DNA from: an uncultured Lachnospiraceae bacterium
GTDB taxonomy: Bacteria > Bacillota > Clostridia > Lachnospirales > Lachnospiraceae
Direction: 5' to 3'
NCBI GenBank assembly: GCA_944376125.1
Contig: CALWBQ010000034.1
Location: 1 to 64,000, forward strand
Length of the DNA: 64,000 nt
Shown: positions 5,452 to 21,039 of the stretch, in pieces
Layout of the letters: each line of letters starts with the position of its first letter
How positions within the stretch are numbered: position 1 is the stretch's first letter
Translations under genes and position numbers: made by a program
Notes under the pieces: generated by a model
Database searches by the model: none
What the model was told of the DNA's origin: nothing
The model's input: only the letters and a program-made list of their open reading frames with translations

Positions 5452-6763
5452 AAATCTTCTGCACATTCTCTTTCATTCTCCGGTTCATCTGGATATAGAC
5501 TTCCACCTCCTCAGACGAAAATCCGGCGAAAATTGCCTTCCCGTAGTCTTCCATGGCGATCTGAAATTCCGGCAGCAGAGACTCCGCCGCCGGCTGCAGC
5601 ATGATCCGGATCTTTTTTTCCTCCCCCTTTTTCGCCTTCAGCTCCTCTGTTTTGATAAAGCCTTTCAAGGACAGTTTCTGGATGACAGAAGAAAGGCACC
5701 TCCCGGACAGTCCCAGAAGGTCTGCAAGCCTCTTCCGGCTGTAAGTTCCGTCGGACTGGCTGACATACAAAAGGAAGCTGGTCTCTGTGATAGTCAGATC
5801 GTGTTTCAGGGCCATCGGCTCCAGATAATGTTCCATCAGCTTCCTGCTGCGGTAGACTTCAGCCAGGATCCCATCCTCCTGGACGGCCTCCTGGTATATG
5901 ATATTCCGCTCTGTCCCCAGCTTTTTCGCCCCGCTCAATATAGATGGAAGGATGATGCCGTCTTTGGCAGAGTCGATCAGGAAGCGGTAAACCTGGAGGC
6001 GGTTTTTCTCATAGTCCTCCTCATCCAGCACATGCTTGTAAAAATTGTTATAGTATTCGAACACCACCAGCTTCATCTGAATGACCTTGGAAATATTCAT
6101 GCTCTGGCTGACCAGGGAGCCTTTGCGCTTGACGTAATAATATATGGGGATCTGCAGAGCGCTGATGGAACGGGCATACCGCAGGTATTCCAGATTGAAC
6201 ATAAAGTCCTCGCACCAGCTGATCTCCCTGTTCATAGAAAGCTGATGCTCCTCCACAATATTCCTGCGGTACAGTTTATTCCAGAGAGCGCCGTAATAAA
6301 AATCCGACGGCCGCTCCATCATATGGGAGGCGAACTCCTCCTTGGTCATCACCTTGTCCTCTTCAATATCCCCTTTGTGGGAGACCCGGTCCCCGATCAC
6401 CCGGTAGAAATCGGCAATCACCATGTCGCAGCCCGTCTCCTCCGCCTTTCTCACCAGCAGCTTTGCCGCCTCCGGCGCCATCCAGTCGTCGCTGTCTGCA
6501 AACTGGAGATACTTCCCCCGGGCCCGGCGGATCGCCAGGTTTCTGCTGTCAGACACACCTGTATTCTCTTTGTGGATCACGTGGACCCGTGGGTCCGTCT
6601 TCCGGTAGTTCTCGCAGAGCTCCCCAGAGCCGTCCGTGCTGCCGTCGTTTACTAAAAGCAGTTCCAGATCCGTGTATTCCTGATTTAATATGCTGTCAAC
6701 GCATCGCTCCAAATAGTCCCGCGCATTATAGACCGGGACGATAATGCTCACTGTTGGCTCCAT
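5444..6763 (-). CDS. GT2 glycosyltransferase fused to a MarR-like winged helix
   Basis: 439 aa. Residues 1 to about 215 are a GT-A family 2 glycosyltransferase of the EpsH/CpsJ kind: SIIVPVYNARDYL at the N-terminus, VNDGSTDGS at 38-46, and the metal-binding ADSDDW at 89-94. Residues 215-300 are a helical extension. Residues about 305-439 look like a MarR winged helix: YSRKRLADLLGLSGRCLSSV is the helix-turn-helix, followed by a KAKKGEEKK wing and long C-terminal helices. The frame runs through both parts without interruption. No membrane segments are evident. It lies just upstream of the PTS operon on the same strand. The donor sugar and the DNA target are unknown. A link to the PTS locus is inferred only from position. 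Confidence 0.78.
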   Translation of the reverse strand: MEPTVSIIVPVYNARDYLERCVDSILNQEYTDLELLLVNDGSTDGSGELCENYRKTDPRVHVIHKENTGVSDSRNLAIRRARGKYLQFADSDDWMAPEAAKLLVRKAEETGCDMVIADFYRVIGDRVSHKGDIEEDKVMTKEEFASHMMERPSDFYYGALWNKLYRRNIVEEHQLSMNREISWCEDFMFNLEYLRYARSISALQIPIYYYVKRKGSLVSQSMNISKVIQMKLVVFEYYNNFYKHVLDEEDYEKNRLQVYRFLIDSAKDGIILPSILSGAKKLGTERNIIYQEAVQEDGILAEVYRSRKLMEHYLEPMALKHDLTITETSFLLYVSQSDGTYSRKRLADLLGLSGRCLSSVIQKLSLKGFIKTEELKAKKGEEKKIRIMLQPAAESLLPEFQIAMEDYGKAIFAGFSSEEVEVYIQMNRRMKENVQKILK

Positions 6764-6843
6764 GCTGTCTCTCTCCTTGAGGTTTTTATTTCATCATAGC
6801 ATGGGATCCATGGAAAGACAACTGATTATCCCAACAGTAACAA

Positions 6844-6967
6844 AGAGTTCCGTTTGCGGAACTCTCGCGCCGAGCGCGGCCGCTTCAGCGGCAAATTTCC
6901 ACTTCGCGCGAGCGCGCATCCCGCGGAGCGTTTTGTTCCATAGAGAACGCAGTTTCCTATAGAACAA
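6844..6967. repeat. GC-rich palindromic intergenic element, candidate dispersed repeat
   Basis: The gap 6764-7045 holds no convincing gene. It contains a perfect 9-bp hairpin with a 4-nt loop (6844-6852 / 6857-6865), a GCCGCT-TCA-GCGGC hairpin, an alternating GCGCGAGCGCGC tract, and a 10-of-11 inverted repeat (6933-6943 / 6957-6967). Its composition is much more GC-rich than that of nearby gaps. The layered palindromes resemble REP- or MITE-like elements. Copy number cannot be judged from one window. Confidence 0.45.
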
Positions 6968-7045: not shown

Positions 7046-7510
7046 TTACTTCAATTCTACCAGAACTTCAATCTCGCAGGCAATCCCGCCCGGCAGGGCG
7101 TTGGTGCCGATGGCCGTCCTGGCCGGAACTCCGGCTTCCTCGCCAAACAATTCCTTCAGCAGCTGGGATCCCCCATTTACCACCTGGGGCTGCTCCGTAA
7201 AGTCGTCAGTGCTGTTGACAAACGCCAGAACCTTCACAAAACGGCGGATCTTGTTCAGATCCCCGGTCTTGTCGTGAAGATTTGCCAGCAGGTTCAGCAC
7301 ACACTGGTAGGCCGCCTTCTGGCCATCCTCCACAGTCAGGTCCTTCCCCAGCTTTCCGATCACGTTGCTATCACCTATCGCCGGACTGCATCCGGAACAG
7401 TACAGGAATTTATCTCCCATCTCCTGGACTGGCGTATAGATGCCACCTTTAGGCGGCGGCGCCGGCAGTTCAATATTCTTCTCCTTCAGAATCTCATAAA
7501 CATCTCTCAT
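7046..7510 (-). CDS. RidA-family enamine/imine deaminase-like protein
   Basis: 154 aa from the ATG at 7510, which has AGGAGAG 8 nt upstream; a longer frame to 7558 lacks such a site. It matches the RidA/YjgF/UK114 family: the C-terminal part has VPARTAIGTNALPGG with the substrate-carboxylate Arg of the family, then CEIEVLVEL. Members hydrolyse 2-aminoacrylate and related imines released by PLP dehydratases. It is slightly longer than archetypal RidA (about 128 aa). It is the last gene of the ABC/amidohydrolase operon. The D-threonine aldolase/D-serine dehydratase-like enzyme two genes upstream would make exactly the type of reactive enamine RidA removes. Confidence 0.85.
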   Translation of the reverse strand: MRDVYEILKEKNIELPAPPPKGGIYTPVQEMGDKFLYCSGCSPAIGDSNVIGKLGKDLTVEDGQKAAYQCVLNLLANLHDKTGDLNKIRRFVKVLAFVNSTDDFTEQPQVVNGGSQLLKELFGEEAGVPARTAIGTNALPGGIACEIEVLVELK

Positions 7511-7541
7511 TGTATTCACTCTCCTGTTTTTATTTTTGCAG

Positions 7542-7591
7542 CAGTTCAGCCATGCCATTCATAATTTGACGGATTCTGCATGGCTGAACTG
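7542..7591. repeat. Perfect 14-bp inverted repeat between the MBL and RidA genes
   Basis: Arms 7542-7555 and 7578-7591 are perfectly complementary (CAGTTCAGCCATGC and its complement) with a 22-nt loop. The right arm abuts the stop codon of the MBL gene, and the left arm is about 30 nt before the RidA start. No T-run follows on the minus strand, so it is not a standard terminator. It is more likely an intercistronic RNA hairpin affecting stability or expression ratio. Confidence 0.6.
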
Positions 7592-8326
7592 TTACATGTT
7601 TTTAGGTATTCCCAGAGCACGGATCGCCTGGGCTGCTTTGTCTGTATGCAGATACCCTCTCCCCAGGGAGATGGCCCCGTGAGCGGGCAGAAATACATCC
7701 GGCCGGATCTTGGCCAGCCGAAGACATGTTTTTACGTAAGCAGCCAAATCGCAGTCCCAGATCGGCTGAAGGGATATCTTTCCTCCATAATACACCGAAT
7801 CACCGCTGAAGAGAACTGTTTTTTGATCGATTGTGGTTTGATAACAGCAATGGCCGATACAGTGTCCATCTGTCCGGACCGCCTTAATCTCCAAATCTCC
7901 CACCTGGATCACCTGCCCGTCTCTCAGGGGTGTGACCGGACAGGCATGGAACGGATAGCCTTCTTCATAGACCCCGGCAGCCACTGCTGCATCAATGGAC
8001 AGGGCCTTTCTGTCCCCGGCAGTCACGTAACAAGCTGTCTCTTCCAATGCCAAAACCTGGGCGCCGCAGTCCTGTGACAGTTTCCACGCACCCCCAGCAT
8101 GGTCTCCGTGGCCGTGAGTGAGAAAGATCTTTTTTATGTCGCTCAAGCTGTGCCCTGTTTTTTCAATATTTTCTTCCAGTTCTTCCGTCCCAAGGCCACA
8201 GCCCGCGTCTATAAGAGCTGCCTCACGCCCTCCGTCAATCAGATAGACGGTACAGTCAACCGGGTGGGACAGGCCAAATCCTGAATCTCCGGAAGCTGCT
8301 ATCCAAATCCTCTCCTGCAGTCTCAC
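7592..8326 (-). CDS. MBL-fold metallo-hydrolase
   Basis: 244 aa with the metallo-beta-lactamase zinc motif THGHGDH at residues 70-76, a downstream GHCIGHC histidine, FSGDSVYYGG (aspartate ligand) and PAHG near the C-terminus, giving a complete glyoxalase II-like di-metal site. There is no signal peptide. It lies 12 nt after the PLP enzyme gene in the same minus-strand operon. The family hydrolyses thioesters, lactones and other esters. The substrate is unknown; hydrolysis of a lactone or acyl thioester intermediate in this pathway is a guess. Confidence 0.83.
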   Translation of the reverse strand: MRLQERIWIAASGDSGFGLSHPVDCTVYLIDGGREAALIDAGCGLGTEELEENIEKTGHSLSDIKKIFLTHGHGDHAGGAWKLSQDCGAQVLALEETACYVTAGDRKALSIDAAVAAGVYEEGYPFHACPVTPLRDGQVIQVGDLEIKAVRTDGHCIGHCCYQTTIDQKTVLFSGDSVYYGGKISLQPIWDCDLAAYVKTCLRLAKIRPDVFLPAHGAISLGRGYLHTDKAAQAIRALGIPKNM

Positions 8327-8338
8327 AGTCTCCCTCCT

Positions 8339-9436
8339 TTACACGCTCTTTCCCCTAGCATCGATGGGGATCATCCGGTCCAGTTTCCCGCCCCGGAAAC
8401 CGTATACCTTTTCCGCAAGGTTGGTCACAACGCAGGCGTGATTGGGGATGATGGAGATTTTATCCCCCACCTCCAGGGGATTCTTCCCTGTACTTCTCAC
8501 AAAGGCATGCTCCTCATTCAGGGCATAAATCTCCAGATCCGGATATTCCACGATATAACCGTAACCGGGCCGGTGGTGACAGGTGTCGCTGGTGAGAGAT
8601 TTCGTCCCCACATCGCAGATAACCACCTGGTCGTCCGGCTTTGCAACCACTGTGGAGATCACAGTGAGAGCACAGTCCTCCGGAGCCGCCAGGCCGATGT
8701 CCAGCTGGCCGCAGTCGTTAAAAATGTAGTGGCCGCTTCGGATCTCCGTGATCCCCTGCAGCAGCTCCGGGAATTTTCCAGAAAAGCTGGAGCCCGCGCT
8801 GAGAATCTCCATGGAAAAGCCGTGATTCTTCAGCAGCGCGGCGGTGTTGACCAAATCATCCCTCTCTCTCCTGCAGGCATCTTTCACCTCGTCGATAGTG
8901 CGGCTGTCGTAGATCAAACCTCCGTAGTACATCAGCCCCCGAATTTTCAGTCCTTTCAGATCCTTCACTTTCATAGCAAATTCCAGGGTCGGTTCCATGG
9001 GCTTTACGCCTCCCCGGTTCAGTCCCCCGTCGACCTCGATGAGCACGGTCAGTTCTCTCCCCGCCTCCTCAAACGCCTGGCTGAGAGCTTCCGCCCCGGC
9101 AACGCTATTGATAATAGTAGAAACTCTTGCGCGGCTGTCCAGTTCCAGCAGCCGCCGGATCTTGTCCTCCCCGATAATGGGGTAGGCGATAAAGATATCT
9201 TTGATGCCGCAGTCAGCCATCGCCTCGGCTTCCCCCAGTTTTGCCGCCGTGATCCCACAGCAGCCTGCCTCCATCTGCAGCCCGGCCAGGTAACCGGATC
9301 TGTGAGTTTTTATGTGAGGTCTGTGGCGAATCCCGTATTTTGCAGCATGATCCGCCATCTCTCTTATATTCTTCTCCGCCCGATCCAAATCCACGACAAC
9401 CGCCGGTGTGGGCAGACGTTTCATATCCGTATTCAT
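8339..9436 (-). CDS. D-threonine aldolase / D-serine dehydratase-like PLP enzyme
   Basis: 365 aa, fold-type III (alanine-racemase barrel) PLP protein. The N-terminal LPTPAVVVDLD begins the barrel and Lys43 in RPHIKTH is the expected Schiff-base lysine. The C-terminal beta domain has IIPNHACVV, with the His-x-Cys pair that binds the essential metal in D-threonine aldolase and eukaryotic-type D-serine dehydratase (DSD1). Activity is therefore expected on a D-beta-hydroxy amino acid, by retro-aldol cleavage to glycine plus aldehyde or by deamination. It lies between the M20 and MBL genes, and RidA is downstream. The dehydratase reading is favoured slightly by the RidA partner, but sequence alone does not separate the two. 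Confidence 0.82.
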   Translation of the reverse strand: MNTDMKRLPTPAVVVDLDRAEKNIREMADHAAKYGIRHRPHIKTHRSGYLAGLQMEAGCCGITAAKLGEAEAMADCGIKDIFIAYPIIGEDKIRRLLELDSRARVSTIINSVAGAEALSQAFEEAGRELTVLIEVDGGLNRGGVKPMEPTLEFAMKVKDLKGLKIRGLMYYGGLIYDSRTIDEVKDACRRERDDLVNTAALLKNHGFSMEILSAGSSFSGKFPELLQGITEIRSGHYIFNDCGQLDIGLAAPEDCALTVISTVVAKPDDQVVICDVGTKSLTSDTCHHRPGYGYIVEYPDLEIYALNEEHAFVRSTGKNPLEVGDKISIIPNHACVVTNLAEKVYGFRGGKLDRMIPIDARGKSV

Positions 9437-9451
9437 CTTCCGTTCTCCTCT

Positions 9452-10594
9452 TTAAACCACTTTTTTTAGCGTTTCTGTCCCCAGAATCGTCTCAATGGCC
9501 GCCTCGTAAAATTCCACTGCAGTTTCCAGCTGGCTGATCTCCAGGTATTCATCCACTGTGTGGGCCTGGGAAAGGCTTCCCGGCCCGCAGATCACAGTTT
9601 TGATCCCGGCCTCAGCCAAAAAGCACTGCTCGCAGGAGGCGTCAAAGGGCTGAGCCTTATGCTTTCTCCCTGAGATTGCCTCCCGGATCTCCAGCGCCTG
9701 CTTTAAAAACGGATCCGTCAGCGGAATTTCCCCTCCGGGCATAAAGAAGTGGCTGGTGATCCGTGTCCCCTCGATACCTGCCTGGCTCAGACTCTCCCTC
9801 AGAAATGCTTCCGCCTCATCCTGCTTCATCCCCGGGAGCAGCCTGAAATCTGTCAGCATCCTCACCTGCCCCGGCACCACGTTATCCTTCTCGTACCCAT
9901 TGAGCATAGTGATGGCGATGCTCGGGGAGGGCAACAGGGGATGTCTGTAGGTCTCCAGCGCCTGATTCATCTTCTGGATTACCTCAATCGCCTTGGCTGA
10001 TTTCTTGATCGCTGACATACTCCCTTCCTGGGGCAGGGCAGCATGGCGCGCCGGGCCAAAAATATCGATATAGTCTCTTGAGACGCCCCGGTGGGCAGCA
10101 GCGATCTCCATCTCGGTCGGCTCCCCGATAATCGCGTAATCTCCACCCGGGTTTTCAGAGAGATACCGCCGAACCCCAAGGTTTGAGCACTCTTCATCAG
10201 ACACAAACAGCAGCTTCAATCTTCCGTTTTGGGGGCCTCCTTTGAGGGCTGTCCGAATCGCCGCCGTGCACATGGCGGCAATCCCGCCCTTCATGTCACA
10301 GGCACCTCTGCCGTAGATTCTACCCTCCCGGATCACCGGGTCAAAGGGGTCATGGCTCCACGGCCCAGGAGCCGGGACAACGTCCAGATGGCCGTTGAGC
10401 ATCAATTCCGGTCCCTCGCCGGCGGAGCGCTCTGCGATCAGATTGGCTCTGCCGCCCCCCAGCTCCTGAAGGCGGCAGGCAAATCCGTACTCCTCCAGAA
10501 GGCCCTGCAGCAGGACAGCCAATGCCCTCTCATTTCCCGGCGGATTTACCGTGTTCACTGTGATCATTGTTTTTAGAAGCTCTAATGCATCCAT
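9452..10594 (-). CDS. M20-family amidohydrolase (ArgE/DapE-like deacylase)
   Basis: 380 aa, zinc-dependent M20 peptidase family. Metal ligands are visible: NGHLD (His69, Asp71), Asp100 in CDMKGG and the catalytic/ligand EE pair at 134-135 (SDEEC), followed by a lid domain and a C-terminal His. It resembles acetylornithine deacetylase/succinyl-diaminopimelate desuccinylase, which remove acyl groups from amino acids. No arginine or lysine biosynthesis gene is adjacent. In this operon it more likely deacylates an imported N-acyl amino acid or sugar-amino conjugate. Cytosolic. Gaps are 25 nt after the kinase gene and 15 nt before the PLP gene. Confidence 0.85.
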   Translation of the reverse strand: MDALELLKTMITVNTVNPPGNERALAVLLQGLLEEYGFACRLQELGGGRANLIAERSAGEGPELMLNGHLDVVPAPGPWSHDPFDPVIREGRIYGRGACDMKGGIAAMCTAAIRTALKGGPQNGRLKLLFVSDEECSNLGVRRYLSENPGGDYAIIGEPTEMEIAAAHRGVSRDYIDIFGPARHAALPQEGSMSAIKKSAKAIEVIQKMNQALETYRHPLLPSPSIAITMLNGYEKDNVVPGQVRMLTDFRLLPGMKQDEAEAFLRESLSQAGIEGTRITSHFFMPGGEIPLTDPFLKQALEIREAISGRKHKAQPFDASCEQCFLAEAGIKTVICGPGSLSQAHTVDEYLEISQLETAVEFYEAAIETILGTETLKKVV

Positions 10595-10619
10595 GTTTGT
10601 CTCCTCAGTTTCTGCTATT

Positions 10620-12092
10620 TTAAAACTGCAGCCTGCCGTATGCCTCCAAATACTTCTGGTAAAGGCCGCTGTATATTTTGACGCTGTCTTCCTGGGGTTT
10701 TAGCGTCCTCCTGATTTTCAGCTGTGCTCTGGAAACCTTCTCCAGATCCTCAAAGATTCCCTGGCCGTAGCCTCCTATCAGCCCGGCTCCTACTGCGGAG
10801 GCATCCGGATTTTCCGCCTCCAGCAGGCGCCGGTCAAATACATTTTTTATGATTTCCGGCCAGACGCGAACTTTCACGCCGCCTCCGCCCAGAACGATGC
10901 GCTCCAGGGGACCTCCCTGCAGCTTTTCAAAAATTTCCAAAGTCTGGCGAAGATTGCAGGAAACGCCCTCCAGCATACTCCTAAAGAGGACACCCCTGGT
11001 CACAGCCGTCTGAATCCCGAGAATTGCTCCCCTGTCCCTGTCATTATAGTACGGTGAACCGCTTCCTGCAAGAAATGGAATCGTCAGCACGTCCTGACTC
11101 CCCGGCGGTACCTGAGCTGCCTCCTCCGAAAGTCTGGCTGCCAGCTCATAGTCGGCCTCCCCGCTTCCGGAAAGCATCCCGGACATCCAGTTGACTACAA
11201 GGCCGCCGTTAAAATGGGAACCCAAAGCGTATATCCTGCCCGGAAGGGCATGGGTGTGGAAGGTAATTTTTCCGAATTCTGATTCCTGCACTCCGTCCGT
11301 CATAGCCAGAAACGTAGCGCAGGTTCCCAGTGTCAGGGTGGAATCTCCCGTCTGGAACAGGCCGTTTCCCACAGCTCCGCAGGCCATGTCTGCCCCGCCG
11401 TACACCACCTTCGTTCCCTCCTGCAGTCCACTCCAGGAGGCAGCTTCAGCTGTCACTGCCCCAGCCTCCTCAAAGGGCTCATGGATCGGCGGGAACAGGC
11501 CGCGCCTCAGCCCAGCCCCGGCGATGATCTCCTCCTCCCAGGTGCGGCTCTCCGGGTTGACGCACAGAGAATTGAAGGCGTCCGTCGCCTCCGTCTCAGC
11601 TTTTCCCGTCAGGCAGGCCCGCAGATAGTCCTTGGGCGAAAGCCAGGCAAAAGCTCTCTCATACTTCTCACTTTCGTTTTTTTTCAGCCACAAAAGTTTA
11701 GGCAGAGAAAAAGCCTGAATAACCGGATTTCCGGTAAGTTTTCGGATCTCCTCCCCCACAGTTTCCGAGAGAATCCGGCACTCTTCGGAGCTCCTGAGAT
11801 CCGAGAGCATGATGCAGGGATACAGGGGCTTCAGCTCCCGATCCACCAGAACCACGCCGCTCATATGTCCGGAAAAAGAGACCACATCGATCTCCTTTAA
11901 ATCCATTTCTGAGGCCAGCTTCTGCAGCCCTCCCTGCAGGGCTCTCTTCCAATCGTCCGGCTCCTGCTCCAGCCATCCCGGCCTGGGCGTGAAGGTCCGA
12001 TAGGGGATTGCAGTCACCTTTCTTGTATTCCCCAGCTCGTCCATGACGAGAAGTTTCAGCTGGGAAGATCCCAGGTCAGCAGACAGTATCAT
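10620..12092 (-). CDS. FGGY-family carbohydrate kinase (xylulokinase-like)
   Basis: 490 aa, two-domain FGGY kinase. The N-terminal phosphate-binding strand reads ILSADLGSSQLKLLVMD, and the catalytic base lies in GGADMACGAVGNG. The second ATPase domain begins around TLTLGTCATF. Overall it is closest to xylulokinase-like members, whose substrate range includes ketopentoses, tetruloses and polyols. Its start overlaps the creatininase stop by 4 nt. Being in an operon with a ribose-type ABC importer, it probably phosphorylates the sugar or polyol left after the amidohydrolases act. The sugar is not identifiable from sequence. Confidence 0.85.
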   Translation of the reverse strand: MILSADLGSSQLKLLVMDELGNTRKVTAIPYRTFTPRPGWLEQEPDDWKRALQGGLQKLASEMDLKEIDVVSFSGHMSGVVLVDRELKPLYPCIMLSDLRSSEECRILSETVGEEIRKLTGNPVIQAFSLPKLLWLKKNESEKYERAFAWLSPKDYLRACLTGKAETEATDAFNSLCVNPESRTWEEEIIAGAGLRRGLFPPIHEPFEEAGAVTAEAASWSGLQEGTKVVYGGADMACGAVGNGLFQTGDSTLTLGTCATFLAMTDGVQESEFGKITFHTHALPGRIYALGSHFNGGLVVNWMSGMLSGSGEADYELAARLSEEAAQVPPGSQDVLTIPFLAGSGSPYYNDRDRGAILGIQTAVTRGVLFRSMLEGVSCNLRQTLEIFEKLQGGPLERIVLGGGGVKVRVWPEIIKNVFDRRLLEAENPDASAVGAGLIGGYGQGIFEDLEKVSRAQLKIRRTLKPQEDSVKIYSGLYQKYLEAYGRLQF

Positions 12093-12820
12093 CTGATCGC
12101 CTCTTTTCCTAAAATCTCACACATGCGCTCCACAACGCGCTCGATGATCGCCTCTCCCTTCTCTTTGGTCGCCGACACAGCGTCCCCCAGGACAGCAGTT
12201 GCCATAAAATCTGTCCAGGGCGTCGGCGTGTAGTCAAAGTCTTCCGGGAAATCCGGGTACTGGCAGATCGCCTTGGACTGATCCACCCACTCCGGACACA
12301 GATACAGCATATAGGAAGTCTCGATCTCGCAGGCGTGGAAATATCCTTTGTGGGGCATGGGGCTCTCACATACCTTGGGAATGACCTCCTCCGCCCCTGG
12401 GTAGGTGAAGAGATAGACTTTGATATCCGAAGTATCGTAGAGCATCCGGGAGGCCATCTTCATGGCGTCCCCGTTTCCCACATGGGTGTTGACGATCGCC
12501 ATCCGCCGGATCCCCGCCTTCTCCAGGCTTTTTCCGATTTGAGCAATCATTCCGCTCAAAATTTCATTGGAAATGTTGACGCTGCCCGGGGCCTCCCTCA
12601 GGGACCACACCTGGCCGTATGGGAGGGCCGGCAGCACGAGGGCGTTCTCCTTTCCCATCTTTTCTTCCAGCTTATCCGTCAGCGCCTGGGCCAGAAAAAG
12701 ATCCGTCCCGATGGGCAGATGATCCCCGTGGACCTCCACCGCTCCCAGCGGGAGCAGGGCTGTCAAGTTCTGATCCTTCAGCCCTCTTGCCGCTGCCTGG
12801 TTCATTTCAATTAATTTCAT
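12089..12820 (-). CDS. Creatininase-family amidohydrolase
   Basis: 243 aa. Family metal ligands are present: E29, H31 and D40 in the segment GAVEVHGDHLPIGTD, an NTHVGNG motif (usually NGHGGN) in mid-sequence, and an EIE motif in FHACEIETS. The family includes creatinine amidohydrolase, FAPy-type formamide hydrolases and MftE peptidase, all acting on amide or cyclic amide bonds. Creatinine breakdown itself is not supported, because no creatinase or sarcosine oxidase is nearby. It is placed between the phosphotriesterase-like gene and the kinase (4-nt overlap). It probably opens or cleaves an amide in the imported compound. Confidence 0.83.
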   Translation of the reverse strand: MKLIEMNQAAARGLKDQNLTALLPLGAVEVHGDHLPIGTDLFLAQALTDKLEEKMGKENALVLPALPYGQVWSLREAPGSVNISNEILSGMIAQIGKSLEKAGIRRMAIVNTHVGNGDAMKMASRMLYDTSDIKVYLFTYPGAEEVIPKVCESPMPHKGYFHACEIETSYMLYLCPEWVDQSKAICQYPDFPEDFDYTPTPWTDFMATAVLGDAVSATKEKGEAIIERVVERMCEILGKEAIR

Positions 12821-12840
12821 GATCCGCCTCCTGCCTGCCG

Positions 12841-13812
12841 CTATTTTTTAAATGTAAAGCAGCGCCTGGGATTGTTGATAAAAATATCCTCCGCCAGCTG
12901 CTTTCCGTTGAGCCCCTGGTTTTCCGCCTCATCAATCAGTCTGGCCATCCATTTTTCCTTTATGTAGGTCAGCCCTCTGGCATAGGTATAGCTGTGGTAA
13001 TAGCTCTTTCTAGCCGTATCCCCGCTGACCAGAAGCTGCTTCTGGTGCCCTCTCTTTGCCAGTTCCAGAATACACTGGATCCTGGTGGATTCCGGTGCGT
13101 ATTTGATCTTTCCAATCCCGTCAAAACACAGGAACGCGCCTGTCTGCGCGATCTGGAGATGGTAGTACGTGTCCGGATTCCGATCCATATGGCCGAAGCT
13201 GACGTACTCCAGATTGACTCCTTCTTCCTTAATATATTCAATCTGTTCCAGAGCCATGGTCCCCGCTTCCGTGTGGGAATGGACAGGCGCTCCGGTGGCA
13301 AGGTGAGCCCGGCAGCCTGCCCGGATCGTCTTGACCTCCAGTGGGCTGATGCTGTTATAGCCTGTGCCGAATTTTACCTGGCCGCCCTTAATGCCAGTGC
13401 CCTGCATTCCAACCTCCACCTCGTCGATCACAAAGCGGGTCAGCTCTTCCACAGATGCCTCTGAAATCCACTGACGGTAGGTCCGTTCTTCCCCGGGCAT
13501 CTTGGCATCCCACAAAAATCCTTTGTTGAATCCAGCCGTCCCAATAATATTCATTCCCGTCTTCACCGATATGTCATAGACCGCCTGAGGCTGTCTGCCA
13601 TAATCAATGGCCGTTGCGTCTACAATGGTATCGACGCCCGCCGCTTTCGCTGCAGCTACCTCCTCAAGACTTTTTTCTGGGTCATCCAGGAGAAGATCAT
13701 CCTGTCCTCTCTCCTTCCAGTAGGCAGGAATGCAGACAATATGCTCATGGGAATAGGTAAATCCCATCTCTTCCGGCTGGATATCGCCTCTCATTGTTCT
13801 GACAAATGCCAT
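12841..13812 (-). CDS. Phosphotriesterase-family (PTE/PLL) metallohydrolase
   Basis: 323 aa with a full binuclear amidohydrolase-type site: H22 and H24 (SHEH), bridging Lys147 (QVKFG), His180 (PVHSHTEAG), His208 (FGHMD) and Asp265 (SGD). Relatives include phosphotriesterase homology proteins and sugar- or acyl-lactonases; the physiological substrates are usually lactones or phosphorylated lactones. No signal peptide. It is the first catabolic gene after the ABC permeases (23-nt gap). In E. coli the yhf cluster also pairs a php gene with an alanine-racemase-like PLP gene, a loose parallel. A lactone or cyclic ester/amide is the likely substrate class. Confidence 0.84.
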   Translation of the reverse strand: MAFVRTMRGDIQPEEMGFTYSHEHIVCIPAYWKERGQDDLLLDDPEKSLEEVAAAKAAGVDTIVDATAIDYGRQPQAVYDISVKTGMNIIGTAGFNKGFLWDAKMPGEERTYRQWISEASVEELTRFVIDEVEVGMQGTGIKGGQVKFGTGYNSISPLEVKTIRAGCRAHLATGAPVHSHTEAGTMALEQIEYIKEEGVNLEYVSFGHMDRNPDTYYHLQIAQTGAFLCFDGIGKIKYAPESTRIQCILELAKRGHQKQLLVSGDTARKSYYHSYTYARGLTYIKEKWMARLIDEAENQGLNGKQLAEDIFINNPRRCFTFKK

Positions 13813-13835
13813 TTCTTCTGTCCTCCTTTTTGCTT

Positions 13836-14786
13836 TTATTGTTTTCCGGCTTTTCGCTGGTTAATTGCCACCATTATGGCGATAACGGCCCCCTGGCAGA
13901 TAAACTTTCCTGCCTCCGAGATTCCCAAGATGGTCATCAGACTCTGCAGGATCGTCATAATCAGCACGCCGGGGAAGGTTCCCTCCAGGCTTCCGATTCC
14001 ACCTGTGAAGGCCGCTCCGCCGATGACGGAGGAAGCCACCGTATTTAACGTATAATCATTCCCAATATCTACAGATGCAACGCCGATATACGCAGACAGC
14101 ATCAGCCCTGCAAGGCCTGCCAGGAGTGCACACAGCACATAGGCAGAGATGGTGATCCAGTCTGCATGGAACCCGGACAGGCGGGAGGCGGCCGGATTGG
14201 CTCCTGTCAGGTACAGCTTCCTCCCATATATAGTCTTCTTCAGTACGATGGAGAGCAGGATCCAGATAGCGACCCAGATAATGACCGCAACTGGCATAAT
14301 CCCGATCCATCCGCTGGAGATAAATCGCATTTCATCTGCAATGCTTCCCCTGGCGATTCCCTGTGTGTAGAGATAATATCCGCCCTGCACGATAATAGAC
14401 ATTGCCATCGTCACCAGAAAAGGCTGCATCTTAAATTTCGTCACCATGATGCCGTTGACCAGGCCGATAGCCAGACAGAGAACCAGAGAGACGGCTACCG
14501 CCGGGGCGATCCGGCTACCATCCCCATTCATAATAGAAGCTGTAACCAGATTCACCATAGACATGGTAGTTCCCACTGACAGATCCAGGCCGCCAGCCAC
14601 CAGCACAATCGTCTGACCCATAGCTGCGATTCCCAGAGGAGCCGCAGTTCTGGCTATGTTTAACAGGTGGGACGGTGATACACTCCCCTGGGTGGAAGCG
14701 AGGAACACAGCGATCGTCGCCAGCAGCAGAATATAAATTCCGAGGGGAAAAGACTGATATCGCAATTTTTGTTTGATCTGATTCAT
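13836..14786 (-). CDS. Ribose-type ABC transporter permease (second)
   Basis: 316 aa, RbsC-like family with multiple hydrophobic segments starting at about residue 15 and the family pattern NTVASSVIGGAAFTGGIGS before the last helices. Its start overlaps the stop of the first permease by 4 nt. It would pair with the 314-aa permease as a heterodimer powered by the RbsA-like ATPase. Substrate specificity cannot be read from permeases. Confidence 0.87.
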   Translation of the reverse strand: MNQIKQKLRYQSFPLGIYILLLATIAVFLASTQGSVSPSHLLNIARTAAPLGIAAMGQTIVLVAGGLDLSVGTTMSMVNLVTASIMNGDGSRIAPAVAVSLVLCLAIGLVNGIMVTKFKMQPFLVTMAMSIIVQGGYYLYTQGIARGSIADEMRFISSGWIGIMPVAVIIWVAIWILLSIVLKKTIYGRKLYLTGANPAASRLSGFHADWITISAYVLCALLAGLAGLMLSAYIGVASVDIGNDYTLNTVASSVIGGAAFTGGIGSLEGTFPGVLIMTILQSLMTILGISEAGKFICQGAVIAIMVAINQRKAGKQ

Positions 14787-15727
14787 ACTGCTTTCCTCCT
14801 CTTCATCTGAAACAGCACTAGGGAGAACATCAAAAGTGCGCCTTTGATGATGTACTGATAATAAGGCGAAATCCCCATACTGTTCATAATATTGTTGATC
14901 AGGCTCAGAATCACGGCGCCAAAGAGAGCCCCCGCCACACTTCCGATACCGCCGTTCATGGACACGCCGCCGATGACCGCTGCGGCCACGGAATCCATAG
15001 CGTAACTGTCTCCCACCAGGGGATTTCCGCTGGAAATTCTGGCTGAGAGGACGACGCCCGCCACCGCGGCGATAATGCCGGAAATGACGTAGACCTGCAC
15101 AGTAATTTTCTTGGTGTTAATGCCCGACTGCTCCGCGTACAGCTCCCCATTTCCTATCGCATAGACCTTTCTCCCAAAACCTGTGTAGTGGAGAATGACC
15201 CAGAGCAAGGCGTATAATACAACGGCTGTCAGGAAGGCGATGGAAAAAATCCCGAACCGGGTCCTCATAAAATCCGCAAATCCCTGGTTGACCTTGCCTC
15301 CCGAGCTGGGCATCAGCACCAGGGCAATGCCTTTGACAAAAGCCTGTGTAGAGATCGTGATGATCATGGCGGGAATCTTAAACTTTACAACGCCCAGGCC
15401 GTTCACCAGTCCCACCGCGGCTCCCACAATGAGGGCCAGGATCAGAGACCCGAAAAGCCCGGCCGCCCCTGTACTGCTGAACATCGCCACCCAGATCGTG
15501 CTGATGGAAATCACAGAGCTGACCGACATATCGATCCCGCCGATAAAAAGGGCCATACACTGTGCGATGGATACAATGGCGAGAACTGCCGTCTGGGTCA
15601 GCACATTTCTCAGGTTTGCCGCTGTCAGGAAGCGGTCCGAAGCGATAGATGCTACCACAATCATAATCACCATGATGATCATGGAGGGAACTGCCTGCTT
15701 CATCTGAGTTTTTACGGAACCTCTCAC
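14783..15727 (-). CDS. Ribose-type ABC transporter permease (first)
   Basis: 314 aa, RbsC-like. Transmembrane segments begin at about residue 12 (VPSMIIMVIMIVVASIA), and the conserved VAAAVIGGVSMNGGIGS loop is near residue 250. It overlaps the ATPase stop codon by 4 nt and the next permease by 4 nt, typical of a tightly coupled rbsACC-like cassette. Confidence 0.87.
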   Translation of the reverse strand: MRGSVKTQMKQAVPSMIIMVIMIVVASIASDRFLTAANLRNVLTQTAVLAIVSIAQCMALFIGGIDMSVSSVISISTIWVAMFSSTGAAGLFGSLILALIVGAAVGLVNGLGVVKFKIPAMIITISTQAFVKGIALVLMPSSGGKVNQGFADFMRTRFGIFSIAFLTAVVLYALLWVILHYTGFGRKVYAIGNGELYAEQSGINTKKITVQVYVISGIIAAVAGVVLSARISSGNPLVGDSYAMDSVAAAVIGGVSMNGGIGSVAGALFGAVILSLINNIMNSMGISPYYQYIIKGALLMFSLVLFQMKRRKAV

Positions 15728-17238
15728 GCTTCTCCCCCCTTTCCTGAATTTGCAGAGAGCTGCATAATTTTCTCTTCGGTAGCGTCTTTTCCGGATATCT
15801 GTCCGGATATCCGCCCTTCATACATAACGTAAATTTCGTCTGAAATGCCGATCAGCTCCAGCATGTCGCTGGTGAAAACGATCACGCTGACCCCTTTCTT
15901 TGTAAGCTGCCGGATCAGCTCATAGATCTCCAGCTTGGACTGGACATCGATCCCCCTGGTAGGCTCGTGGAGAACCAGGATCTCCGGATCTGTCTTAATC
16001 CAGCGGGAAAATACAATCTTCTGCTGATTTCCTCCTGACAGGCTCTTGACCGGCTGCCGGGCATCCGCCAACTTAATTTTCAGCTGATCAATCCCATCCT
16101 GAATTTCCTTCTGAGAATCCTTCTTTTTTACAAATCCAAGTTTTGAATTTCTCTTGTACGATAGAGACAAAATATTTTCCCCGCAGGACAGATCCAGGAA
16201 AAGCCCCTCCGCCTTCCGGTCATCTGACAGGAACGCGATCTTGTTTTTCACTGCATCCACCGGGCTAGAAATTTTTTTCTGTTCCCCGTCGATGAGACAG
16301 ACACCGGATGTGAATGGCACAATCCCAAACAGCGCCCTGGCCAGCTCTCTCTGTCCCTGGCCCTCCAGACCTCCAATACCGATGACAGCTCCCTTGGGCA
16401 GTTTTAAGTCAACATCCTTTACCTTACTGCCCACGCACCCTTTTTGGATTTCCAATTTGATGGTGTCTGACAGTTTTTCGTTTCTGGGGGGATATACATT
16501 TTTAAATTCCCGCCCTACCATCTTGCTGATGATCTCATCGTTGTTGGTATCCTTTGTCAGAGCTGAAAAAACAAACATTCCGTCTTTCAGGACGATCACC
16601 CGGTCACAGCACGCAAAAATGTCATCCATCCTGTGGCTGATCACAATAACCGAAACCCCCTGTTTCTTTATCCTGCGAATAAAATCAAACAGCTGATCCG
16701 ATTCTGCTTTGTTGAGGCTGGAGGTCGGCTCATCAAAGATCAGCACCCGCGGATGAGCGGCCCACGCTTTTGCAATTTCTACGATCTGTCTCTGCGCCGG
16801 CGACAGGTTTTTTACCAGCTCGTATTCATCAATCTCATATCCGATTTCTTTCAATACTCCTGCAGCCTGCTCATGGAGCTTTTTCTGGTCAATCCATCTC
16901 CCTTTCTTTGGCTCCATGCCCAGCATAATGTTTTCCCCGGCCGTCATTTCGTTCATCAGGCTCAATTCCTGATGGACAAAGGCAATTCCCGCGTTTTTTC
17001 CATCCCTGGAGCTAGAAAAATGACATTCTTTTCCGTCCATCCGTACAGTTCCCGAAGACGGTACAAGGCCGCCGCTTATAATATTCATCAGGGTAGACTT
17101 CCCGGCTCCATTCTCACCTGCCAGGGCCAGCCCTTCTCCCTCAAAGCACTGGATGGAAACATCCCGCAGTACGGTATTTTCGCCAAAATTTTTGGACAAG
17201 CTCTGTCCCTCTAGAATCATTTTGCCCGTATGTTCCAT
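15724..17238 (-). CDS. Ribose-type ABC transporter ATP-binding protein (double domain)
   Basis: About 504 aa with two tandem ATPase domains, as in RbsA/MglA. The first has Walker A GENGAGKST and signature LSPAQRQ. The second has a degenerate Walker A region (GGLEGQGQREL), typical of the family, and signature LSGGNQQK. The start chosen is the ATG at 17238 with GAGGG about 5 nt upstream; a GTG at 17262 extends the frame but lacks a site. It lies downstream of the binding-protein gene, separated by a hairpin. Confidence 0.88.
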   Translation of the reverse strand: MEHTGKMILEGQSLSKNFGENTVLRDVSIQCFEGEGLALAGENGAGKSTLMNIISGGLVPSSGTVRMDGKECHFSSSRDGKNAGIAFVHQELSLMNEMTAGENIMLGMEPKKGRWIDQKKLHEQAAGVLKEIGYEIDEYELVKNLSPAQRQIVEIAKAWAAHPRVLIFDEPTSSLNKAESDQLFDFIRRIKKQGVSVIVISHRMDDIFACCDRVIVLKDGMFVFSALTKDTNNDEIISKMVGREFKNVYPPRNEKLSDTIKLEIQKGCVGSKVKDVDLKLPKGAVIGIGGLEGQGQRELARALFGIVPFTSGVCLIDGEQKKISSPVDAVKNKIAFLSDDRKAEGLFLDLSCGENILSLSYKRNSKLGFVKKKDSQKEIQDGIDQLKIKLADARQPVKSLSGGNQQKIVFSRWIKTDPEILVLHEPTRGIDVQSKLEIYELIRQLTKKGVSVIVFTSDMLELIGISDEIYVMYEGRISGQISGKDATEEKIMQLSANSGKGGEA

Positions 17239-17285
17239 TCTTTCCCTCTTTCGATCCTTCACACATCCGTTTATCTGGCTACAAA

Positions 17286-17327
17286 AGGCCCGGCGCCAGA
17301 TTTCTCATAACATCCGGCGCCGGTTCT
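17286..17327 (-). terminator. Intercistronic hairpin after the binding-protein gene
   Basis: Arms CCGGCGCC at 17290-17297 and GGCGCCGG at 17316-17323, with an 18-nt loop, then a short CCTTTTG on the minus strand. It is a strong stem with a weak T-run, so probably a partial terminator or stability hairpin that lets the binding protein be made in excess over the ATPase and permeases. Confidence 0.55.
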
Positions 17328-17335
17328 GTTTCACT

Positions 17336-18505
17336 TTAATTGCTGAAAATCTCGGCTAATACATCTTCTGGGAGCTCTGTTCCGCACCAAACGTCATCGG
17401 AAAGATCCATATGTACATAGTCAGGCATCTCTTCCGTTGTAATGGTCAGAACCGGATAGATATCATCCTTCTTTACTTCTTCCCCGTTCATCAGTTTGAT
17501 GGCATTTTCAATGGCAACCCTTGCCAGCCAGGTGGGTTTGGAAACCGCTATACCTTCCATGTTGTTGTTTACGCATGCCTTCAGGTAGCCATTGTTATCC
17601 TCGCCTGTCATAGGAACCAGCTCGCGGTTTGCCTCGTTAAAGGAATCGATAGCGCCCAATGTCATAGCGCCGCCCTGGGACCACACGCCGTCGATCTCCG
17701 GGTAGGTGGCCAACAGGTCAGAGGTAACCGTCTTTGCGGTTGCATAATCCCAATCGGCATCCTCTGCTGCCAGGATATTGATGTCCGGATACTGTTCAAA
17801 TACGGACATCGCGCCTTCGTAGCGCAGAGTGTTGGAGGAGAATCCAGAGATACCATTCAAGATTACAATATCGCCTTCTCCGCCCAACTGATCAGCCAGC
17901 CACTGGGCACCGGTTGCGCCGAAGTCAGTCTCGTCTACTGTAACCAGGGTATCATAACTGTCCCCATCGATGGTGGCTGCCAGCAAGACTACCTTGATGC
18001 CAGCATCCATCGCATCCTGCAGTGTGCTGTTAATAGCGGTGGTATCAATAGGAGTCGTAATAATAACATCCACGCCCTGAGCGATCAGATCCTCCAGATT
18101 TGCGATCTGCTTGCTCACATCATTGTCAGACTGAACATAAGTGACATCCAGGTCATCCTTATATAAATTTTCTGCGTTCCACTTAAATTCCTGATAGAGC
18201 TGTACAGACCAGGAGTTGCCCAGATAATAAATGTCGTAGCCAACTTTGATCTTTTCGCCGGTGGTATTTTCCACCTTCTCCGCCGAGGAGCTCTCTGCTG
18301 CGGTCTCTTCCGAAGCAGCTTCTGTCTCTTCCGCTGACGTTTCCGTTTCAGCCGCTGTAGTTGTCTCAGCCGCTGCCGTTGTCGCAGCAGCCGTTGTCTC
18401 AGATGAGCTGCCCGATGAACATCCGGTAAGTGCCATGGACAGCGCTACTGCCGCGGTCATGCCCAGTGCTGTTGCTCTGGAAGCCAAATTTACCCTTTTT
18501 TTCAT
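17336..18505 (-). CDS. Sugar-binding lipoprotein of the ribose-type ABC importer
   Basis: About 389 aa from the ATG at 18505 (GGAGGA about 7 nt upstream). Lipoprotein signal: positive MKKR start, hydrophobic stretch and lipobox ALTGC with Cys29. A Thr/Ala/Glu/Ser-rich linker follows (about 30-85), common in Lachnospiraceae surface lipoproteins, then a type I periplasmic-binding fold starting at KIKVGYDIYYLG. The protein is anchored outside and feeds the downstream ATPase and permeases. It is first in the operon, next to the regulated promoter. The ligand is unknown; the fold usually binds monosaccharides, polyols or autoinducer-like sugars. Confidence 0.88.
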   Translation of the reverse strand: MKKRVNLASRATALGMTAAVALSMALTGCSSGSSSETTAAATTAAAETTTAAETETSAEETEAASEETAAESSSAEKVENTTGEKIKVGYDIYYLGNSWSVQLYQEFKWNAENLYKDDLDVTYVQSDNDVSKQIANLEDLIAQGVDVIITTPIDTTAINSTLQDAMDAGIKVVLLAATIDGDSYDTLVTVDETDFGATGAQWLADQLGGEGDIVILNGISGFSSNTLRYEGAMSVFEQYPDINILAAEDADWDYATAKTVTSDLLATYPEIDGVWSQGGAMTLGAIDSFNEANRELVPMTGEDNNGYLKACVNNNMEGIAVSKPTWLARVAIENAIKLMNGEEVKKDDIYPVLTITTEEMPDYVHMDLSDDVWCGTELPEDVLAEIFSN

Positions 18506-18566: not shown

Positions 18567-18598
18567 ATCATATCATTGATTACTTGACTAGTCAAGTA
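18567..18598 (-). promoter_or_regulatory. Regulated promoter with an 18-bp GntR-type operator
   Basis: TACTTGACTAGTCAAGTA (18581-18598) is a perfect palindrome. The minus-strand promoter uses part of it: -35 TTGACT (18595-18590), 17-nt spacer, -10 TATGAT (18572-18567). The operator covers the -35 box, which predicts repression by steric block. The palindrome type fits the HutC/UTRA branch of GntR regulators, and such a gene is divergently encoded 165 bp away. Confidence 0.72.
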
Positions 18599-18712: not shown

Positions 18713-18762
18713 AAGAATATAACACTTTGGAAAACGGATGTTTTCTATTGCAAAGGAGAACT

Positions 18763-19566
18763 ATGGCACCTTCTAATCCCGATTCTTTAAATCAAAATTC
18801 CCATCTGCCCTACTATGTCCAGATTAAGTATTACCTTCGCCAATTAATCCGGGACCTGGGACCCAATATGCTGGTTCCCAGCGAAAAGGAGCTGGCCGAT
18901 ACCTTTGGCGTCAGCAGGGGAACAGCCAAGCAGGCAATTATGGATCTAGTTTACGAGGGAGTTCTTTATCGAAAGCAGGGAAAGGGTACCTTTACTGCTG
19001 ATTTTATTCCCAGGCAGTACAATCATCTGCCTTCCTTCACCGGAGATATCCGCAAGGCAGGGCACACCGCTGTCTCCCAGCCTCTCCAATTTTCTTATTC
19101 AGCGCCTGCCCCCAGGGCAAGAGCATTTTTTGCCCTGTCAGATGACGAGCCGGTGCTAAAATACAAACGTCTGGTGCTGGGGGACGGGAACCCTATAGCT
19201 GTTGTCACTAGTTTTTTAAATGGGCGTCTTTTCGGCGGCCTGCAGATGGCAGATATCGGAAACTCTCTGTATGATTCTCTGATTAAAAAATTCGGCTTCG
19301 CACCGACCCAGGCCCATGACACCTACTGTCTAGCTGAAATATCCCCCAAAACTGCACAGCTTTTAGAGCAGCCAGAGGGCGGGATTGTCATCTACTCCGA
19401 GCGTCTTGCCTATCTCTCTGATGGGACGCCTGCCGAATTCGTAGAAAACTATATCCGGGCAGACCGTTTTAAGCTGGAGATTGACTATAAAAATCAGGAT
19501 AACTGCCTGATGGCATCCCCGTCATTCCAGCTGACCGAAATGATGCCCTATGACGAAAAGAAATGA
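18763..19566 (+). CDS. GntR-family regulator with UTRA domain (HutC type)
   Basis: About 267 aa from the ATG at 18763 (AAAGGAGA just upstream); a TTG at 18727 is an unsupported alternative. The N-terminal winged helix (about residues 10-80) contains VPSEKELADTFGVSRGTAKQAI. The C-terminal UTRA effector domain runs from about residue 95 to 250. It is divergent from the eleven-gene ABC operon and most likely represses it through the 18581-18598 palindrome. UTRA ligands are usually small metabolites such as amino sugars or organic acids, so the effector may reveal the pathway's substrate. Confidence 0.87.
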   Translation: MAPSNPDSLNQNSHLPYYVQIKYYLRQLIRDLGPNMLVPSEKELADTFGVSRGTAKQAIMDLVYEGVLYRKQGKGTFTADFIPRQYNHLPSFTGDIRKAGHTAVSQPLQFSYSAPAPRARAFFALSDDEPVLKYKRLVLGDGNPIAVVTSFLNGRLFGGLQMADIGNSLYDSLIKKFGFAPTQAHDTYCLAEISPKTAQLLEQPEGGIVIYSERLAYLSDGTPAEFVENYIRADRFKLEIDYKNQDNCLMASPSFQLTEMMPYDEKK

Positions 19567-19671: not shown

Positions 19672-21039
19672 TTATGCAAGCCCCGGAAGGAATCCTGAGC
19701 ACGCTGCCAGAATACACAGTACGATGAATCCTACGATACACGCGATCAAGTTGCCGCCTGTATGGGCGATAAAGGTTTCGCGGAGGCTCAGATCATTGTA
19801 CTCTTTTACCTGCCAGAACGCGCCGTCAGTAGGCAGGCAGATTCCAAGGCCGCCCAGGCAGATGGCAAGGCCGACAATAATCGGATTTGCATTTGTCGTG
19901 GCAAGCATAGGAGCCATCAGAGATGCCGTGGTAACCAGCGCAGTTGCGGAGGAACCCAGAGCAGCCTTCAGGAAAACAGAGATAATCAGAGCCATCACGA
20001 ACAGCGGGATGTGGCTTCCGATCACCAGAGAGCCCAGGATATCGCCGATGCCGGATGCGGTGATCATAGCACCGTAAGAACCTGAAGCCGCCAGGATAAA
20101 GAAGATGCTTCCCACATCATTGAGGCTGGCGCCAAACACCTTTGCCGGTGTTTTGTCGATGTATTTGTGGAGCATAATCCAGGCTACCAGCACAGACACG
20201 GTCAGAGCGCCAACGCCGTTTGATCCAGACAGGAAATCACAGACGCTTCCAACAATACCATTGCTGGTCAGATAAGGTGCGACAGTTGCAAATAAAATCA
20301 GCAAGATGGGAAGAAGGATCAGAAAAACAGCCGTCAAAGCAGATGGGTGTTCTTCTTTCGTATTTTGGCTGATCTCCTTCATAATATCTTCATCGCTGAT
20401 ATTGTCTGCCTCTGCATTGGTGCTGAATTTTCTCATCAGGTACTCGCCGTAAAGCCATCCGCCGCAGATGCTGGCAGGCGCACTTACAACCAGAGAGTAC
20501 AGAATAAACAGACCAATGTTTGCATTCAGAGATCCTGCTACCGCCAGAGGGCCGGGAGTCGGGATTACCAGGCAGTGGGTGCACATAAGACCTACTACCA
20601 GTGCTGTCGTATATCCGATTACATGTTTTTTCGTATGTTTGGCAAGAGTTGTACAGATGGGATTGAGAATAATGTATGCCGGCCCCATAAATACGGGGAT
20701 AGATACCAGGTACCCAGTTCCGTTCAAAGCCAGCAGAGCGTGTTTGCTGCCAACTGTCTTTATCAGCCCCAGTGCCAGCTGGTCAGTGGCCCCTGATTCA
20801 GACAGAATACTTCCCAAAATGGAACCCAGACCTACTACGATGCCCAGGGAAGCCATCATATTTCCAAATCCGGTGGCGGTGGTGGACACCAGCTCTGCCG
20901 CAGGCATTCCCAGCAGGATTCCCATAAGCAGCGCCGTCAGAAGCATCATCATGCCGGAATCCATTTTCAGCTTAATGATGCCAAACAGCAAGAAAGCTAA
21001 GCTGAGAAAGAAGACAATAATAACCCATGTTGTATTCAT
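19672..21039 (-). CDS. GntP-family permease (gluconate/glycerate type)
   Basis: 455 aa, hydrophobic throughout with about 12-14 predicted helices and the GntP-like segment GIVVGLGSILGSILSESG. GntP members carry gluconate, glycerate and related hydroxy acids with protons. It is the last gene of a three-gene operon after glycerate kinase and an esterase, which points to D-glycerate or a related sugar acid. It begins 2 nt after the esterase stop. Confidence 0.85.
   Translation of the reverse strand: MNTTWVIIVFFLSLAFLLFGIIKLKMDSGMMMLLTALLMGILLGMPAAELVSTTATGFGNMMASLGIVVGLGSILGSILSESGATDQLALGLIKTVGSKHALLALNGTGYLVSIPVFMGPAYIILNPICTTLAKHTKKHVIGYTTALVVGLMCTHCLVIPTPGPLAVAGSLNANIGLFILYSLVVSAPASICGGWLYGEYLMRKFSTNAEADNISDEDIMKEISQNTKEEHPSALTAVFLILLPILLILFATVAPYLTSNGIVGSVCDFLSGSNGVGALTVSVLVAWIMLHKYIDKTPAKVFGASLNDVGSIFFILAASGSYGAMITASGIGDILGSLVIGSHIPLFVMALIISVFLKAALGSSATALVTTASLMAPMLATTNANPIIVGLAICLGGLGICLPTDGAFWQVKEYNDLSLRETFIAHTGGNLIACIVGFIVLCILAACSGFLPGLA

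Follow-up and report, generated by a model that had tools for sequence, protein, structure and literature searches.

The window analyzed here is a 64,000-nucleotide stretch of DNA from an uncultured, gut-type Lachnospiraceae bacterium (GenBank assembly GCA_944376125.1, contig CALWBQ010000034.1, positions 1 to 64,000), and the element under study is a run of 11 minus-strand genes at 7046-18505 that is preceded by one strong promoter-like site and a divergent GntR-type regulator gene (Table 1). The run encodes an ATP-binding cassette (ABC) importer together with seven enzymes, namely a PTE-family protein, a creatininase-like hydrolase, an FGGY sugar kinase, an M20 deacylase, a fold-III pyridoxal phosphate (PLP) enzyme, a metallo-beta-lactamase-fold hydrolase (MBL) and a RidA protein. 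Our re-analysis agrees with a first-pass annotation of this DNA in order, strand, coordinates, families and promoter-like site; the Pfam scores of the seven enzymes, the binding protein and the regulator all exceed their cut-offs. Intergenic gaps range from -4 to +33 nucleotides, with the sole exception of 73 nucleotides between the binding-protein and ATPase genes, and the active-site motifs of all seven enzymes are intact. Also supported is the earlier view that the operon is catabolic and combines an importer and several hydrolases with a PLP lyase that has RidA as its partner. Judged by its relatives, the operon is a joining of two modules that elsewhere occur apart: module A consists of a deacylase, a fold-III PLP enzyme and RidA, and module B of an importer plus FGGY kinase (or a phosphotransferase system, PTS, in place of both) with a PTE and a creatininase-like hydrolase.

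Table 1. Genes and sites of the operon and its immediate borders (window coordinates)
Feature	Position	Strand	Basis
Lipoprotein substrate-binding protein, Peripla_BP_4, ribose-type	17336-18505	-	Pfam 3e-58; ribosome-binding site GGAGG before 18505
Double ATPase, ribose/arabinose/xylose-type importer	15724-17262	-	NCBIfam AraG/XylG/RbsA-type, E about 1e-138
Importer permease 1	14783-15727	-	Translation; orthologues 93-38% in same position
Importer permease 2	13836-14786	-	Translation; orthologues 91-51%
PTE-family protein (P0007), predicted phospho-sugar lactonase	12841-13812	-	444 bits to PDB 3pnz
Creatininase-family metal-dependent hydrolase	12089-12820	-	Pfam 2e-60
FGGY sugar kinase, xylulokinase-like	10620-12092	-	Pfam; NCBIfam XylB 358 bits; motif GHMSG
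M20 deacylase, ArgE/DapE family	9452-10594	-	NCBIfam TIGR01910 above cut-off; metal motifs intact
Fold-III PLP enzyme, D-threonine aldolase/D-serine dehydratase family, dehydratase type	8339-9436	-	PLP Lys43; H333/C335
Metallo-beta-lactamase-fold hydrolase (MBL)	7592-8326	-	Pfam 5e-26; active-site motifs intact
RidA-family enamine/imine hydrolase	7046-7558	-	Pfam 1e-12; Arg and Glu motifs kept
GntR/HutC-type regulator with UTRA domain, divergent	18727-19566	+	Pfam GntR 1e-13, UTRA 3e-24
Promoter-like site TTGACT-17-TATGAT, extended -10	18567-18595	-	10/12 consensus positions; consensus match only
18-bp perfect palindrome TACTTGACTAGTCAAGTA, putative GntR operator	18581-18598		Overlaps -35 box
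Terminator-like stem-loop after RidA	6843-6866	-	10-bp stem, T-rich tail; consensus match only

With the Listeria phospho-sugar lactonase 3PNZ the window PTE shares 61% identity. The binuclear metal ligands HHKHHD, including the bridging Lys, are kept in it and in all of its relatives from ABC or PTS clusters. Residues K242, K244, R275 and Y278 of 3PNZ, which we matched in the PDB sequence and take to be the ligands of the distal phosphate, are all retained as K235, K237, R268 and Y271, and this KKRY site recurs in every relative from an ABC-type or UlaA-type-PTS cluster. We predict that the window PTE is a phospho-sugar lactonase of the 3PNZ type (cog1735) acting on phosphorylated lactones and not the generic amide/lactone hydrolase proposed earlier, given that its closest characterized relative is a phospho-lactonase. 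The same relative and the same phosphate site led us to reject an organophosphatase or an amidase. Against the NCBIfam phospho-furanose lactonase equivalog NF045706 the protein scores 166 bits and does not reach the cut-off of 630.

The first-pass annotation had the kinase trapping a sugar already set free by the hydrolases, and the related clusters do not support this order. Module B comes with an ABC importer and FGGY kinase in the window and in loci L037, L038, L033, L055 and L061, and with a UlaA-type PTS in L032, L034, L039, L040, L043, L047, L048, L057, L059, L060, L062 and L063; in this sample the two forms never occur in one PTE-creatininase cluster. Because a PTS phosphorylates on entry and takes the place of importer and kinase in these relatives, and because the PTE keeps the phosphate-binding residues of 3PNZ, the kinase should act before the PTE, and phosphorylation should precede the other hydrolases as well. 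The kinase itself fails the xylulokinase equivalog TIGR01312 (358 bits against a cut-off of 380), so that a plain xylulokinase identity was rejected, and its sugar-site motif reads GHMSG instead of the GQMHG that we take to be typical of xylulokinases. NCBIfam places the importer ATPase among the sugar importers, with scores under the equivalog cut-offs. In L055 the binding protein is 82% identical to that of the window over residues 93-405, and for this reason the two importers probably have the same ligand.

The PTE is regularly paired with the creatininase-like protein. A gene for the latter lies at most 7 kb away in 11 of the 11 KKRY loci found through the PTE (L032-L034, L055, L057-L063); it is absent from six more distant PTE loci (L064, L066-L068, L096, L097) and from L065, and Glu replaces the bridging Lys in the four of these six that were read. 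Only loci found through the PTE are counted, since the creatininase-like protein was the query that led to L037-L054 and L056, and the creatininase content of these loci is not independent. A plain creatininase identity was rejected, as the window protein scores 113 bits against a cut-off of 235 for the creatininase (EC 3.5.2.10) equivalog TIGR04448. A contig scan with this protein as a lone sequence returned one locus, and an alignment query would reach further. A PTE search at class level gave no new loci, and one in the families of genomes G450 and G927 added divergent PTE loci only.

The partners of the pair are also informative. A 2-keto-3-deoxy-6-phosphogluconate (KDPG) or KDGP aldolase lies in or adjoins clusters L032, L033, L034, L043, L047, L048, L058 and L061, SIS proteins accompany many clusters of the PTS form, and nagA and nagB stand in the same gene run in L063, together pointing to amino-sugar phosphates as the type of substrate. 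Listeria cluster L032, that of 3PNZ, shares with the window the pairing of orthologous PTE (61%) and creatininase-like protein (48%) and a phosphorylated substrate, but it uses a PTS importer, KDGP aldolase and SIS isomerase and has no ABC importer, kinase, M20, PLP enzyme, MBL or RidA. Conversely, the Alicyclobacillus dauci plasmid locus L033 matches the window in ABC importer, PTE, creatininase-like protein, FGGY kinase, GntR and operator core TTGACTAGTCAA, and carries a KDGP aldolase in place of PLP enzyme, M20, RidA and MBL. Among the other PTE loci, L040 holds two adjacent PTE genes (9857-12247; 37% and 57% identical to the window PTE) in one PTS cluster. In L058 a sulfatase (479-1615) lies near PTE, creatininase-like, KDPG aldolase and SIS genes, a possible link to sulfated amino sugars. 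L096 and L097 are divergent PTE clusters resembling the E. coli yhf type, in which a distantly related fold-III PLP protein (24-26%) lies close to the PTE; the pairing of the two enzymes may be older than the window operon.

Turning to module A, the PLP enzyme has the features of D-serine and D-3-hydroxyaspartate dehydratases, that is, the PLP Lys, the HxC pair and the Ala_racemase_N and D-ser_dehydrat domains. Its H333-x-C335 metal pair is that of D-threo-3-hydroxyaspartate dehydratase (3WQC) and of every examined relative with a readable C terminus, whereas the two D-threonine aldolases compared, 4v15 and 7dib, have H-x-D. A D-threonine aldolase identity was rejected on this ground, and the glycine that had been expected from aldolase chemistry goes with it. 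Because of the H333-x-C335 pair, elimination of the dehydratase/ammonia-lyase type is more likely than aldol cleavage, and it would explain the presence of RidA, whose start may be internal, at MRDVYE. The M20 protein scores 237 bits against the TIGR01910 subfamily cut-off of 218 with its two-metal ligands present, which classes it as a deacylase at subfamily level only. Relatives of the PLP enzyme adjoin RidA and a deacylase of either the M20 or the D-glutamate-deacylase type; an amidohydrolase of the latter kind (PRK09061-like) belongs to module A in L079, L080 and L082 and, by homology, in L081 and L084. In Paracoccus the PLP enzyme is accompanied by RidA, a sugar kinase and a TRAP transporter; its companions in Parabacteroides are RidA and a gluconate symporter. 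On the E. coli carbapenemase plasmid pEC6563-NDM5 (L075, 8305-13085), PLP enzyme, M20, RidA and an MFS transporter lie near IS26 copies, a foreign-looking cassette that would be a metabolic passenger.

The MBL falls under the curated cut-off for resistance beta-lactamases, and this identity was rejected. The window's own genome has a second cluster (L086, genome G000, contig C9: 21000-40900) with a TRAP transporter, an MBL relative (36%), DUF362, a class V aminotransferase, 2-keto-3-deoxygluconate (KDG) kinase and KDPG aldolase, with RidA nearby, which looks like another pathway leading to KDG. Since its 36% relative sits there, the operon MBL may act on compounds of this class too, with lactonase or deacylase as possible roles.

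Genomes G000, G217 and G149 each have a single copy of the palindrome core, always in the region of this promoter, and the 149-kb Alicyclobacillus plasmid has a single copy as well, located between the ABC genes and the PTE gene of its cluster. G450 has one more site, on a contig other than the cluster's, which is probably due to chance, because a backwards-pattern control also matched once there. Orthologues of the GntR protein adjoin the related clusters (95% identity in L001, 67-69% in L038 and 40% in L033). Such a one-operon regulon, with a common operator and orthologous regulators (40-95%), suggests that the related clusters share an inducer. Some weaker matches to the promoter consensus lie inside the gene run, so that internal promoters are possible on sequence.

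A second species of the genus (L001/L037) keeps all 11 genes in the same order, at 81-96% identity. In another genus of the same family, L038 has the ABC importer, PTE, creatininase-like protein, FGGY kinase, M20, PLP enzyme, MBL and GntR, with no RidA at the locus. L055, from another family, has PLP enzyme, RidA, ABC importer, PTE, creatininase-like protein, FGGY kinase and MBL, with no M20 in the cluster; its PLP enzyme belongs to another lineage in the tree (27% identical to that of the window), which suggests that the PLP function is needed by the pathway and was recruited twice. In a more distant family, L061 combines PLP enzyme, PTE, ABC importer, creatininase-like protein, FGGY kinase and GntR with a short-chain dehydrogenase that could make a lactone, and a KDPG aldolase is next door; here the PLP gene is truncated by the contig end, and the genome search found one stop codon within the PTE match. 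The gene association is by this comparison more than chance, because all 11 genes are kept in L001/L037 and the core is kept in L038 and L055. The first-pass annotation named rare co-occurrence outside close relatives as grounds for refuting its reading, and this is half the case: the full set of seven is found only in two species of a single genus, while six of the seven occur together in both L038 and L055. The cluster is rare: within the order, 2 of 392 genomes carry a PTE at E<1e-60, and 4 of 397 genomes of the family sample have a creatininase-like relative with an identity of 50% or more, the window's own genome being included in each count. Such a patchy distribution fits horizontal transfer.

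Taken together, we tentatively favor, at somewhat less than even chances, a substrate-induced operon for the catabolism of an N-acylated amino-sugar acid or lactone (of the 2-acylamino-2-deoxy-aldonate type) by way of a phosphate. The ABC importer would bring in the compound, the FGGY kinase would phosphorylate it, and the PTE would open the phospho-lactone. The N-acyl or amide group would then be taken off by the creatininase-like protein, the M20 enzyme or both; here we infer the order of steps after the PTE, as we do what the substrate is and what the creatininase-like protein and the MBL contribute. From the resulting beta-hydroxy-D-alpha-amino acid the PLP enzyme would eliminate water and ammonia, RidA would hydrolyze the released enamine/imine, and the 2-keto-3-deoxy-aldonate phosphate would be split into pyruvate and triose phosphate by a KDPG aldolase whose gene lies elsewhere in the genome. 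Two KDPG aldolases are present in the window's genome; a search of that genome for KDGP aldolase (PF07071) gave no match, but its control also matched nowhere. Until an intermediate binds it, GntR would keep the operon repressed from the palindrome that overlaps the -35 box.

Two known pathways come close. In Pseudoalteromonas, the Ong cluster supplies four functions, namely deacylase, fold-III PLP deaminase, RidA and sugar kinase, and deletion of any one of them abolished growth on N-acetylglucosaminate; the PLP enzyme, which also accepts D-Ser and D-Thr, converts glucosaminate to KDG and ammonia, and phosphorylation follows deamination (PMC9537276). These four functions are all present in the window operon, at the level of general function only. 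The likeness extends to a PLP enzyme distantly akin to D-Ser dehydratase and D-Thr aldolase, to a RidA that is essential in Ong, to a repressor of its own and to the product type, KDG-6-phosphate in Ong. The Ong pathway, however, has a D-aminoacylase-type deacylase (OngB), an SSS symporter, a KDG kinase placed downstream of deamination and a regulator of the MurR/RpiR type, and no PTE, creatininase-like protein, MBL, FGGY kinase or ABC importer has been described for it; the operon lacks an OngB-type (amidohydrolase) deacylase and a PfkB (KDG) kinase and has M20 and FGGY enzymes instead. In the Salmonella Dga system, D-glucosaminate is deaminated as the 6-phosphate after PTS uptake and then cleaved by an aldolase (PMC9529869). 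Dga thus resembles our proposal in phosphorylating first, in a PLP ammonia-lyase acting on a 2-amino-aldonate phosphate and in an aldolase for KDG-6-phosphate, and it differs in its PTS, its aminotransferase-family ammonia-lyase and its DgaF aldolase, with no lactonase or deacylase as described. The operon looks like a third arrangement, combining early phosphorylation as in Dga with deacylation, fold-III PLP lyase and RidA as in Ong, and adding a phospho-lactonase and a creatininase-like hydrolase. The first-pass statement that no pathway has this set of enzymes does not hold for N-acyl deacylase, fold-III PLP deaminase, RidA and sugar kinase, which make up the Ong pathway (PMC9537276); the whole combination appears undescribed, even though the kinds of components are known. 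A literature search on module A matched only the Ong paper (PMC9537276), one for a phospho-furanose lactonase or for PTE, creatininase and ABC importer together had no match, and one on the E. coli yhf operon found nothing relevant.

Several points weigh against the phosphorylative route. The order of steps is the reverse of that in Ong, whose enzymes do not use phosphorylated N-acetylglucosamine (GlcNAc)-aldonate (PMC9537276), so that a phosphate-first order needs an enzyme of different specificity. The PTS-type clusters show no PLP lyase and usually a SIS protein, and module B must therefore also serve another fate. In addition, the operon itself contains no aldolase or dehydrogenase, the L055 cluster lacks M20 and L038 lacks RidA, the creatininase-like protein and the MBL have only tentative roles, and the kinase most resembles xylulokinase.

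Of the alternatives, the original conjugate model fares best once corrected. It has a sugar or sugar lactone imported while joined to an N-acyl D-hydroxy-amino acid, with kinase, PTE and creatininase-like protein handling the sugar half and M20, PLP lyase and RidA the amino-acid half. The independence of the modules elsewhere, with module A alone on the E. coli plasmid and module B alone in Listeria, is in its favor. However, the phosphate site of the PTE means that the sugar half would be phosphorylated before the PTE acts, the PLP enzyme is retained in L055 and L061, both of which lack M20, and the model fits no natural conjugate known. As a single carbon skeleton, an amino-sugar acid or lactone, accounts for the data with fewer assumptions, we regard a conjugate as unlikely.

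Still less probable is a lactam-bearing amino sugar, for instance a muramic-lactam-like or other cyclic-amide sugar, in which the creatininase-like enzyme would open the lactam and the PTE would act on an ester or lactone of the phosphate. Opening of cyclic amides is the classical reaction of the creatininase fold, the pairing of this protein with the phospho-lactonase is complete in the 11 KKRY loci found through the PTE, and the SIS and nagA/nagB genes of the PTS clusters agree with amino-sugar phosphates. Against this, the protein lies under the creatininase cut-off and has Gly at the position of a Glu that presumably belongs to the creatininase metal site. A division of labor under one promoter, in which a nitrogen-free sugar lactone or ketose is handled by one part while M20, PLP enzyme and RidA act independently on amino acids of the D-serine/D-threonine type, would suit the xylulokinase family as the kinase's closest NCBIfam match and the preference for phosphorylated pentonolactones reportedly seen in 2012 for 3PNZ-type lactonases, but is likewise improbable, given that a PLP enzyme again accompanies module B in L055 (from a different lineage) and in L061, which argues for one pathway.

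The surroundings of the operon appear to be separate from it. Downstream lie separate units, a glycosyltransferase gene (5444-6763) and a PTS EIIBC gene (3713-5398), beyond the stem-loop listed in Table 1; terminator-like sites overall are no commoner than in shuffled sequence. On the other side of the GntR gene, a minus-strand run at 19672-23103 encodes a GntP-family permease, a BD-FAE-type esterase and glycerate kinase and is probably a separate glycerate-type uptake unit. The G+C content is 53-57% at 8001-14000 of the window and 46-50% at about 18-36 kb; this contrast, with the patchy spread, hints at horizontal gain of the operon.

The pair of PTE and creatininase-like protein recurs across Bacillota, including Listeria, and our literature search found no paper that describes it. 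The operon links this pair to known chemistry, namely deacylation, PLP-dependent deamination and RidA, and thereby narrows the substrate class to phosphorylated amino-sugar acids or lactones. It is conceivable, though we would put the chances at little better than one in three, that we are looking at a previously undescribed phosphorylative route for N-acyl amino-sugar lactones or lactams, in which a fold-III PLP ammonia-lyase with a dedicated RidA acts on phosphorylated 2-amino-aldonates supplied by a kinase, a phospho-lactonase and a new creatininase-family amidase, and in which the PTE-creatininase pair is the common core of a large set of Bacillota sugar pathways, that of Listeria among them. 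If the substrate class is rightly assigned, the operon would give a physiological role to phospho-sugar lactonases and to a creatininase-like family, and would provide a second case of a dedicated RidA in the breakdown of amino-sugar acids.

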